A stretch of DNA of 22,515 nucleotides from positions 1 to 22,515 of IMG/VR virus record IMGVR_UViG_3300028925_012358. One strand, written 5' to 3'. Positions 12,427-15,384 of this stretch are shown here, one piece after another (within the stretch, counting starts at the first letter, position 1; every line of letters begins with the position of its first letter). The position numbers and the translations under genes are program-made. Below the pieces are notes generated by a model. That model searched no databases. It worked only from the letters and a program-made list of their open reading frames with translations, and had not been told where the DNA came from. The DNA is from a virus.

Positions 12427-13965
12427 ATGTCTAATTTATCGGATTTATTACCAGCAGGTGGTGGTGGTTTAACAAAAGAGTTTGTAGCCTCAGGTAATTT
12501 AAGCAATGGACAAACTTTAATACTAAACTCTGATGGTACTGTTACTGCTGTTGCTGGCTCTGGCTCTGGGGCTAGTGTCCCTGCTGGTTCAGTTTCCAGA
12601 TTCGACGTAGGTGCTACTAAATTTCCAAGCAGTCATTATGATGGCTCAACTGGTCGTCTTGTTGTTGTCTTTGCGGATCAAACTAACGGTTACTATGGCA
12701 CAGCTTGCGTTGGGACGGTCACTGGAACATCGATTGTTTTTTCTACCTTAACTGTGTGGAATAGTGCTAGTTCAAGAAACGTCAAATTTGCCGTAGATCC
12801 AAATACTGCTGGTAAAATGATGATTGTGTTTACTCAAAGTCTTGGAACATTAAGCGGGGTGGTGGGTACGTACACGGGTACTGGCGCAAGTGCCAGCATG
12901 AGCTTTGGTTCTGCGGCTGTCGTATTAAACTACGATATGCCTGGCGATTTAGCCATTACTTACGACAAAAACACGGCAGGTCGATTCGTAATTATGGCTC
13001 ACGCACCTACGAACTCAGGCAAAGGAATTGTCGGGAATATTGCTAGTGGTTCAACAACAGCAAGCATGGGAAGCGCTGTGGATTGGGCGGGAAGCCAAGC
13101 TGCTGCACCGAAACCAAGAGGCGTTGACTACATAGCTTATGATAAAACTGCTGATAAGTTTGTAACTTCTTTTGCTGATAACGCCAATAGTGATTATTTG
13201 AACGCAATTGTAGGTACAATTTCGGGAACAAACTCGCTAAGTTTTGGGACACGAACCGCATCAACGATAGTTACTAACGCCTTGACAAGCATTGCTGTTG
13301 ACCCCTTGCGGTCAGGTTCTTTTTTAATCGCATATGTTGATCAGCCAAACACATACACTGGCAGGGCTCTCGTTGCAACACTGTCTGGAACAACCGTGTC
13401 TTTTGGAACTCCCGTAGCATTTAACTCAGGTTCGGCGGGCGGAGCAGGAAACACAAATAGGCCACAGGCTTTTATGGGTAGCGGTATACAAGATTTAGGC
13501 GCAATTACGTGGTCAATAGGAGAAAATCCATTTACGATCAAGACTCGTCCATTCACAATTAGCGGTACATCAGTTAGCTTTGGGACTACTTATAATCTGC
13601 TTGCAGATACAGATCATAATGAGTTGTTTTCGGCATTTAACCCTGCACAATCGGGCCAATTTACTACTAGCTATGTACAATTAACCGGCACTAATGGCGG
13701 TGACGTTAGCATAGGTCAGCTTAGTACGCTTGCAACAAACTTAACGTCTACGAATTTTGTAGGTATGCCTGATGCTGCATACAGCAGTGGCGCTACAGCT
13801 ACAGTCACTCTACAAGGAGGGGTGTCTCTTAATCAATCAAGCCTCGTCATTGGAAGCACTTATTATATTCAGTCTAATGGCAGTTTAGCCACGAGCGAAG
13901 GAACACCATCCGTAGAAGCAGGAAAAGCAATATCCGCCACATCATTATTACTTAAAGGAGTTTAA
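12427..13965 (+). CDS. Tail fibre with beta-propeller-like repeats
   Basis: A 512-residue fibre with an AAAGGA site 7 bases upstream. After a short N-terminal fibre motif (FVASGNLSNGQTLILNSDGT) there are about six repeats. Each ends in a signature such as 'GTVTGTSIVF', 'GTISGTNSLSFGT', 'ATLSGTTVSFGTPV' or 'FTISGTSVSFGT', separated by 'AxDxxxxGxxxxxF' strands, suggesting six propeller blades. The last 70 residues ('GATATVTLQGGVSLNQSSL', 'GSTYYIQSNGSLATSE', 'AGKAISATSLLLKG') are a well-known C-terminal fibre module near the distal tip. It follows the other fibre gene and precedes lysis genes, so the two fibres may form a branched or alternate receptor-binding set. The receptor is unknown. Confidence 0.7.
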   Translation: MSNLSDLLPAGGGGLTKEFVASGNLSNGQTLILNSDGTVTAVAGSGSGASVPAGSVSRFDVGATKFPSSHYDGSTGRLVVVFADQTNGYYGTACVGTVTGTSIVFSTLTVWNSASSRNVKFAVDPNTAGKMMIVFTQSLGTLSGVVGTYTGTGASASMSFGSAAVVLNYDMPGDLAITYDKNTAGRFVIMAHAPTNSGKGIVGNIASGSTTASMGSAVDWAGSQAAAPKPRGVDYIAYDKTADKFVTSFADNANSDYLNAIVGTISGTNSLSFGTRTASTIVTNALTSIAVDPLRSGSFLIAYVDQPNTYTGRALVATLSGTTVSFGTPVAFNSGSAGGAGNTNRPQAFMGSGIQDLGAITWSIGENPFTIKTRPFTISGTSVSFGTTYNLLADTDHNELFSAFNPAQSGQFTTSYVQLTGTNGGDVSIGQLSTLATNLTSTNFVGMPDAAYSSGATATVTLQGGVSLNQSSLVIGSTYYIQSNGSLATSEGTPSVEAGKAISATSLLLKGV

Positions 13966-13967
13966 TC

Positions 13968-14249
13968 ATGCAAACAATTACTAACGAAAGCGGTGTATCT
14001 GCTTATATTTTTGACGATTCAACAGCAATCGAAGTGACAAGCACTAACATTGTATGTCCTGAATTTATTGTGGGAGATCTAAATGAAACTAACTCTACTG
14101 TTCATACTGGCGTAACACCACCAGCAGATTGGATGGGTGGTCGATACACATTTGATGGCTCTGTGTTTACTCAAGTAGAAGGATGGGTAGATCCGAAAGT
14201 AGCTGAGATTGCCAGACTACAAGCTCAAATAGATGAATTAAATGCCTAA
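13968..14249 (+). CDS. Small fibre-associated protein (93 aa)
   Basis: A 93-residue acidic protein with an AAAGGAG site 7 bases upstream of its ATG, starting 2 bases after the fibre stop. Residues 50-72 contain 'PPADWMGGRYTFDGSVFTQ', a pattern seen in small proteins encoded next to phage fibres and endolysins. The C-terminus (VAEIARLQAQIDELNA) is a short coiled-coil. There is no membrane segment, so it is not a holin. It could be a fibre assembly chaperone or a small tip protein; neither is shown. It overlaps the next gene by 8 bases. Confidence 0.6.
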   Translation: MQTITNESGVSAYIFDDSTAIEVTSTNIVCPEFIVGDLNETNSTVHTGVTPPADWMGGRYTFDGSVFTQVEGWVDPKVAEIARLQAQIDELNA

Positions 14250-14589
14250 ACTGTTTGAACCGGAGGGCTACAAGGCTCTCTCTGCCGTTGAAAAGTCTCG
14301 CCTATGCAATGGTTGCGGGGCAAAAGGCTCGATCAGTGGTTTGTTTACACCATCTACGTTATATGGCTTATCGATACACGAGTCATGCCTGATCCATGAT
14401 TATGAATATTTTTTTGGGGTAGATGATACCGATAAACAAGCTGCTGATAGAACGTTTTTAAATAACATGAACAGGCAAATTGATGGATCTAGTAAAAAAT
14501 GGCTTATATGGCTACGTAAAAGACGCGCATTAAAATACTATTTTGCCGTTAAATGGTTCGGTGGCAGCGCCTTCTGGGATAAACAGTGA
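14242..14589 (+). CDS. Phospholipase A2-like lysis-cassette protein
   Basis: A 115-residue basic protein. Three elements together resemble the PLA2 core. A Cys/Gly-rich loop 'NGCGAKGS' (23-30) sits where PLA2 enzymes bind calcium. 'SCLIHDYEY' (48-56) carries the His52-Asp53-x-x-Tyr56 arrangement of the catalytic HDxxY motif. 'DKQAADRTFLNNM' (64-76) has the Asp69 that would complete the dyad network. There is no signal peptide or membrane helix, and a basic C-terminal part (LRKRRALKYYFAVKW) could touch membranes. It overlaps the gene before it by 8 bases, and its TGA overlaps the GTG start of the endolysin. A membrane-lipid hydrolase helping lysis is the natural idea but is inference. It might instead be a structural PLA2-fold protein without activity. 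Confidence 0.55.
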   Translation: MPKLFEPEGYKALSAVEKSRLCNGCGAKGSISGLFTPSTLYGLSIHESCLIHDYEYFFGVDDTDKQAADRTFLNNMNRQIDGSSKKWLIWLRKRRALKYYFAVKWFGGSAFWDKQ

Positions 14590-14984
14590 ACCTTGTTGAC
14601 AGTATAAAAAAACACGAAGGTCTAAAACTGACTGTTTATCAATGTGTAACAGGGGCGAATACCATTGGGTACGGACGCAATCTGGACACAAATGGGATCA
14701 CCGAACAAGAAGCTGAACTGCTGTTAATGAACGATATTAAAACCGCTACAAAGCAAGCAAAAACTTTAGACTTTTACCAGGGACTAACAGCGGCTAGGCA
14801 AGAAGTAATAATTGAACTTGTCTACAATTTAGGGTTGAAAGGTTTTAAAACTTTTACTCGCGCTATAAAAGCGATAGAACGTGCTGACTACGAAGTTGCT
14901 GGTAATGAGCTATTAGATTCAAAATGGTGCCGTCAGGTAGGACTGAGAGCGCTTACACTATCCAATACAATGAAAAACGGCTAG
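14586..14984 (+). CDS. Endolysin, T4-type lysozyme (GH24)
   Basis: A 132-residue muramidase-like protein that would cleave the glycan strands of peptidoglycan at lysis. The catalytic Glu11 lies in 'KKHEGLKLTVYQ', Thr26 lies in 'ANTIGYGRNLD', and the usual 'LVYNLGLKGFKTFT' helix and 'SKWCRQVGLRALT' end are present. At the position of the T4 lysozyme Asp20 there is a Cys (Cys20); E-8-(D/C)-5-T variants are known and a D20C T4 lysozyme is active, so this need not inactivate it. It is shorter than T4 lysozyme (164 residues). The start is GTG, overlapping the previous stop (GTGA). It has no signal or SAR segment, so export would need a holin, which I cannot find in this window. Confidence 0.88.
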   Translation: MNLVDSIKKHEGLKLTVYQCVTGANTIGYGRNLDTNGITEQEAELLLMNDIKTATKQAKTLDFYQGLTAARQEVIIELVYNLGLKGFKTFTRAIKAIERADYEVAGNELLDSKWCRQVGLRALTLSNTMKNG

Positions 14985-15339: not shown

Positions 15340-15384
15340 TGGCTCCTCGACCAGGACTCGAACCTGGGACCCATTGATTAACAG
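15340..15384 (-). other. attP core: 3' part of tRNA-Asn (GTT anticodon)
   Basis: On the minus strand, the anticodon loop CTGTTAA, the variable region, a perfect T-arm (CCAGG, loop TTCGAGT, CCTGG), the 3' acceptor strand TCGAGGA, discriminator G and CCA follow in order. The GTT anticodon with this GTTAATC context and TTCGAGT loop matches bacterial tRNA-Asn. The sequence upstream of the anticodon loop does not pair with the TCAAT stem strand, and no D-arm is present, so this is a partial gene. It lies 31 bases downstream of the integrase stop. The host tRNA should start with TCCTCGA to pair with the acceptor strand. Identity may extend a few bases beyond these limits. Confidence 0.8.

Follow-up and report, generated by a model that had tools for sequence, protein, structure and literature searches.

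Tailed phages that infect Gram-negative hosts are known to breach the outer membrane via spanins or disruptins. A phospholipase A2 (PLA2) has been proposed as a lysis factor in the Wolbachia phage WO, in which a patatin-like gene lies next to a holin-like gene (PMC9203015); this lysis role is a proposal only, and the patatin family is unrelated to the protein described below. Functionally, the closest precedent is TtaP of Salmonella Typhi, a DUF1353 protein without a signal peptide, whose proven PLA2 activity was abolished by mutation of the Asp of its His/Asp dyad. Deletion of ttaP gave no envelope phenotype, the protein stays cell-associated without a lysis phenotype, and the authors of that study anticipate PLA2 activity in further DUF1353 proteins (PMC11525133). 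In phages, a DUF1353 gene is located two genes before the amidase of FNU1 (PMC6591296), and in a Francisella phage another adjoins a gene for tail-fibre assembly (PMC7924643). PLA2-annotated phage genes are already known, and the recurrent lysis-cassette place of the family reported here is undescribed in the literature searched, in which no experiments were found that address lysis by a phage PLA2 of this kind.

The PLA2-like gene in the window

The window, which is the whole stretch of viral DNA analysed (22,515 nt; IMG/VR record IMGVR_UViG_3300028925_012358), contains a plus-strand ORF of 115 amino acids (14242-14589) that the preliminary description had read as a PLA2-like protein coupled to the endolysin. 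The overlapping start and stop codons reported there were confirmed. The stop of a 93-aa gene upstream (13968-14249, plus strand), for which no family match with E below 0.01 was obtained, overlaps the start of the ORF by 8 nt, and the stop codon of the ORF is overlapped by the GTG start (14586) of a T4-type lysozyme (14586-14984, plus strand; PHROG 7 endolysin, E 3.4e-19). Further upstream, a 512-aa protein (12427-13965, plus strand) occupies the tail fibre gene position, and its putative function follows from this position and from the preliminary reading. The triad of T4 lysozyme is Glu11-Asp20-Thr26; the window lysozyme has Glu11, Cys20 and Thr26 at these positions, and other endolysins with Cys at position 20 are known.

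The PLA2-like protein has a net charge of +5 and a maximum 19-residue hydropathy of 0.81. A signal peptide, a transmembrane (TM) stretch, a lipobox and a hydrophobic N-terminal stretch for secretion or activation were looked for in it, and none was found. A spanin identity was ruled out, as the protein has neither a TM anchor nor a lipobox. The comparison with the 77% identical homologue of L002 gave a dN/dS of about 0.12, indicating purifying selection on the gene.

The absence of a visible holin, also claimed earlier, was confirmed; no holin-like ORF was found on the plus strand between 13.9 and 15.4 kb, and no holin or spanin is visible in the window. The window is probably a fragment, since the virus record has no end repeats and expected genes are absent at both ends, and a holin may thus lie outside it. 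In a close relative (G003; L041, 2631-3304), a 690-aa ejection-type protein is followed by a 95-aa gene with a holin-like C-terminal hydrophobic stretch and then by an endolysin-like gene; the endolysin thus has no fixed place in the phage group of the window. Between the lysozyme and the integrase of the window, a minus-strand sequence (15341-15384) resembles the 3' part of a tRNA, including the T-arm GGTTCGAGTCC. ARAGORN detected no complete tRNA at this position, and the sequence is likely an attP core.

Relationship to PLA2s and conserved residues

Scans of the lone sequence against Pfam, PHROG and NCBIfam were too weak for a decision. DUF1353 (PF07087) was matched with 19.8 bits, below the gathering cut-off of 22.5, Phospholip_A2_3 (PF09056, group XIV) with 15.0 bits, below the cut-off of 29.4, and Phospholip_A2_4 at the borderline, while the best match in the PDB was the PLA2 of Streptomyces violaceoruber (E 0.87). 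The libraries searched hold no named model for this protein family. A match to IDO (E 0.003) was rejected, as it makes no sense in the context and was seen in only 3 of the 24 family members.

Homologues from IMG/VR were compiled into a 24-row alignment, and its profile was searched against the PDB. As a result, four PLA2s were retrieved (1FAZ, E 5.6e-8; 4AUP, 3.9e-6; 8K1W, 3.3e-5; 7YGK, 3.7e-4), with no other match below E 0.7, which indicates that the resemblance to PLA2s is more than chance. A 31-row profile ranked the PLA2s in the same order, with a best E-value of 1.3e-7. Phospholip_A2_3 was matched by 17 of the 24 members (E up to 1, best 2e-7), as was DUF1353 (17/24, E up to 1, best 1.7e-4). 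A scan of genome contigs for relatives yielded only two, one of them in Sulfurimonas.

The Cys/Gly loop and the His, Asp and Tyr residues noted earlier do lie in PLA2-like order, and the His, Asp and Tyr residues align with the PLA2 of S. violaceoruber. The catalytic His52 and the Ca-ligand Asp53 (14395-14400) correspond to His64 and Asp65 of that enzyme, Tyr56 (14407-14409) to Tyr68, the catalytic dyad partner Asp69 (14446-14448) to Asp85, and Cys49 (14386-14388) is aligned with Cys61. His52 and Asp53, whose conservation had been proposed as a check, are invariant in all 31 homologues together with Cys49. Most of these homologues were found via the CNGCGAK loop motif, which is located elsewhere in the protein than the three invariant residues. 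The loop itself, C22-N-G-C25-G-A-K-G29 (14305-14328), is the family signature and a putative Ca2+ loop; its CNGCG is likewise invariant (31/31), which is partly a search effect because the motif also served as the seed. The position of Tyr56 is occupied by Tyr in 24 and by Phe in 5 of the 31 proteins, and that of Asp69 by Asp in 23, Asn in 7 and Ala in 1.

The best sequence and fold matches of the window protein are group XIV secreted PLA2s (1FAZ; TbSP1 of Tuber borchii, 4AUP; PF09056), with which it shares the His/Asp dyad, the HD pair, the Tyr, Cys49 and the core helices. It differs from them by the CNGCGAKG loop, a score below the Pfam cut-off and the lack of a signal peptide, and it contains three cysteines (22, 25 and 49), of which C25 may pair with C49, whereas the group XIV enzymes have four in two disulfides. 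TtaP and the window protein are alike in size, in the absence of a signal and in the His/Asp dyad, and both match strongly to group XIV PLA2s only. The islet that encodes TtaP also carries a phage-type muramidase, just as the window protein is encoded beside a lysozyme. However, TtaP lacks the conserved group XIV cysteines, and the window protein stays under the DUF1353 cut-off. The gene product is most likely a PLA2 of the group XIV / DUF1353 (TtaP-like) branch.

Two AlphaFold2 models built from family alignments, one of which left out two phage-collection rows, had mean pLDDT values of 82 and 85 and showed long helices at residues 46-58, 62-83 and 86-106. The third helix (14491-14559, plus strand; KKWLIWLRKRRALKYYFAVKWF) is cationic and aromatic and could form a membrane-binding face. 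The fold check suggested earlier returned only PLA2s at high probability: the top PDB matches of both models in Foldseek were 4AUP, 8K1W and 1FAZ (probability 0.94-1.00, TM 0.52-0.59), and all non-PLA2 matches had a probability of 0.35 or less. The Foldseek E-values were modest (best 0.013, none below 0.01), so neither the fold nor the sequence evidence should be read without the other. In the search of viral models, the top hit was the 'Phospholipase A2 domain protein' of Vibrio phage 1.097.O (AUR87155.1; E 9.4e-7), a direct homologue with 40% identity. The next hits were a phage protein without characterisation, a further phage protein labelled as a PLA2 and weak matches to densovirus VP1. 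At the putative calcium loop of the preliminary description, a conserved Cys/Gly loop is present but residues 27-35 were modelled poorly (pLDDT <50), and a role of CNGCGAKG in Ca2+ binding is the least certain part of the assignment.

Consistent with the profile search, the fold search and the His-Asp conservation, which together make a strong case for PLA2 identity, the window protein very probably belongs to the PLA2 superfamily. Neither outcome named beforehand as speaking against the PLA2 reading, a model without a PLA2 fold or a loss of His52/Asp53 among homologues, was observed. The protein is also probably an active enzyme.

Genes adjoining the homologues

The genes around the homologues were surveyed for the proposed coupling to the endolysin. 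No single partner emerged from the widely scattered PHROG assignments of 172 neighbouring genes, so named neighbours were scanned and distances were computed. Four unrelated kinds of endolysin were found beside the PLA2-like gene: a lysozyme in the window, L006, L008, L023, L024 and, weakly, L040; M15 peptidases in L005, L007 and L010; Amidase_2 in L009; and GH108 in L015 and L017. An endolysin of PHROG 465 adjoins it in L038. An endolysin was detected on 16 contigs of 15 kb or longer, and on 9 of these 16 it was located within 1.3 kb (1.5 expected). After removal of the window and one weak match, this was the case on 7 of 14 contigs against 1.3 expected (P = 7e-5, an indicative value because uniform placement on each contig was assumed and the endolysin families were partly picked after viewing the neighbours). 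In the closest long relatives, L003 and L004 (75-77% identical), the PLA2-like gene is located in the fibre region with the endolysin about 12 kb away, which rules out a strict rule that the PLA2 always lies beside an endolysin. The coupling is real in this genome and enriched among the homologues, but it is not strict in the family.

Profile-supported holins were found one or two genes from the PLA2-like gene in L010 and L017, and further small TM proteins occur near homologues. Lipoproteins were enriched as well (11 of 114 near genes vs 2 of 190 further away, Fisher P 5e-4). With two more recognised by eye, they are present at 13 of the 31 homologous loci, directly beside the PLA2-like gene in L008, L010, L011, L015, L020, L021, L034, L036 and L038. 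Many of them form one alignable family of 73-109 aa in very different phages. The lipoprotein of L034 matched weakly to PHROG 1275, Rz-like spanin (E 0.0013), and the neighbouring lipoprotein could be an o-spanin, a tether or an inhibitor.

Possible roles of the PLA2-like protein

A main role in lysis is plausible, at about even odds (roughly 0.5). The points counted for it were the endolysin proximity, the holins in L010 and L017, the adjoining lipoproteins, the muramidase of the TtaP islet and the gene order of FNU1. Counted against it were the distant endolysin of L003 and L004, the Vibrio phage gene at the terminase, the 8 of 31 homologues without the dyad Asp, the ttaP deletion without an envelope phenotype, and the window without a visible holin or spanin. 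Secreted PLA2s require approximately millimolar Ca2+, and the cytosol holds little free Ca2+. The protein would be produced late, along with the lysozyme and the products of the fibre-region genes. Lacking a signal, it would remain in the cytosol in a latent state, since little free Ca2+ is available there and the putative Cys25-Cys49 bond would be reduced. Once a holin, none of which was found in the window, had opened the inner membrane, the enzyme would meet Ca2+ and the oxidising periplasm and could cleave host phospholipids to lysophospholipid and free fatty acid. In this way it would contribute to membrane disruption, with the outer membrane as the most plausible target, after the lysozyme had cut the wall.

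Alternatively, the protein might be a virion-associated PLA2 that acts at entry and eases the passage of DNA or ejection proteins through the membranes; the PLA2 domain of parvovirus VP1 has a comparable part in endosomal escape. In the window and in many homologues the gene follows fibre-region or tail genes, in L002-L004 it adjoins structural genes, in Vibrio phage 1.097.O the homologue adjoins the terminase with no endolysin next to it, and the window protein matched weakly to PHROG 1158 (tail). However, the structural neighbours vary widely among the phages, and the proximity to endolysins, holins and lipoproteins also argues against this role, which we consider unlikely.

A moron that serves lysogenic conversion is also unlikely; as such, the protein would be an accessory PLA2 with no part in the phage cycle, directed at the host envelope, at competitors or at grazers. 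Streptococcal prophages with a PLA2 gene adjoining the lysin provide a precedent, and the gene is located between the fibre-region genes and the integrase, a usual moron place, where the partial tRNA-like sequence could be attP. Nevertheless, the protein has no signal peptide, the gene overlaps translationally with flanking late genes on both sides, and the related loci examined have lysis or structural genes, not an integrase, beside it.

A non-catalytic or altered protein of PLA2 fold, such as a membrane-binding or assembly factor, would be in line with weak hits to phage families annotated as tail assembly and with a coherent subfamily in which Asp69 is replaced by Asn or Ala and, mostly, Tyr56 by Phe, while His-Asp is kept (L018, L020, L021, L028, L034 and L040). 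Of the eight homologues without the dyad Asp, five also have Phe at Tyr56, and one member of the subfamily is from a Sulfurimonas genome; their residues suggest that these are possibly altered or inactive enzymes. The window protein, by contrast, has the full His-Asp-Asp set, the dyad is kept in 23 of 31 homologues, and such a function is improbable here. Late lipid remodelling apart from lysis, for instance a membrane change against superinfection or fatty acid release, would agree with the cell-associated TtaP that gives no lysis phenotype (PMC11525133), but it is very unlikely, given that the gene sits with the late genes at the endolysin and not with early or takeover genes.

If the lysis role is true, an enzyme that cleaves lipids would give lysis cassettes a chemically different way of opening the outer membrane, which could serve phages without a recognisable spanin, and a function would be suggested for DUF1353-like genes beside phage endolysins. 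There would also be a lead on why the typhoid toxin islet of Salmonella pairs a muramidase with a PLA2. A broader and more doubtful proposal is that the unnamed phage PLA2 family (CNGCG...HD...D) is a widespread extra lysis component in phages of Gram-negative hosts, often encoded along with a small lipoprotein, and that its enzymatic attack on the outer membrane replaces or supplements spanins. Under this proposal, a cassette of this type would have been domesticated to give rise to the muramidase and PLA2 of the typhoid toxin islet. Outside this context, a 1715-aa Verrucomicrobia protein (L035, 1183-6330) carries a PLA2-like stretch at its C-terminal end and is possibly a large secreted protein tipped with a PLA2-like part.
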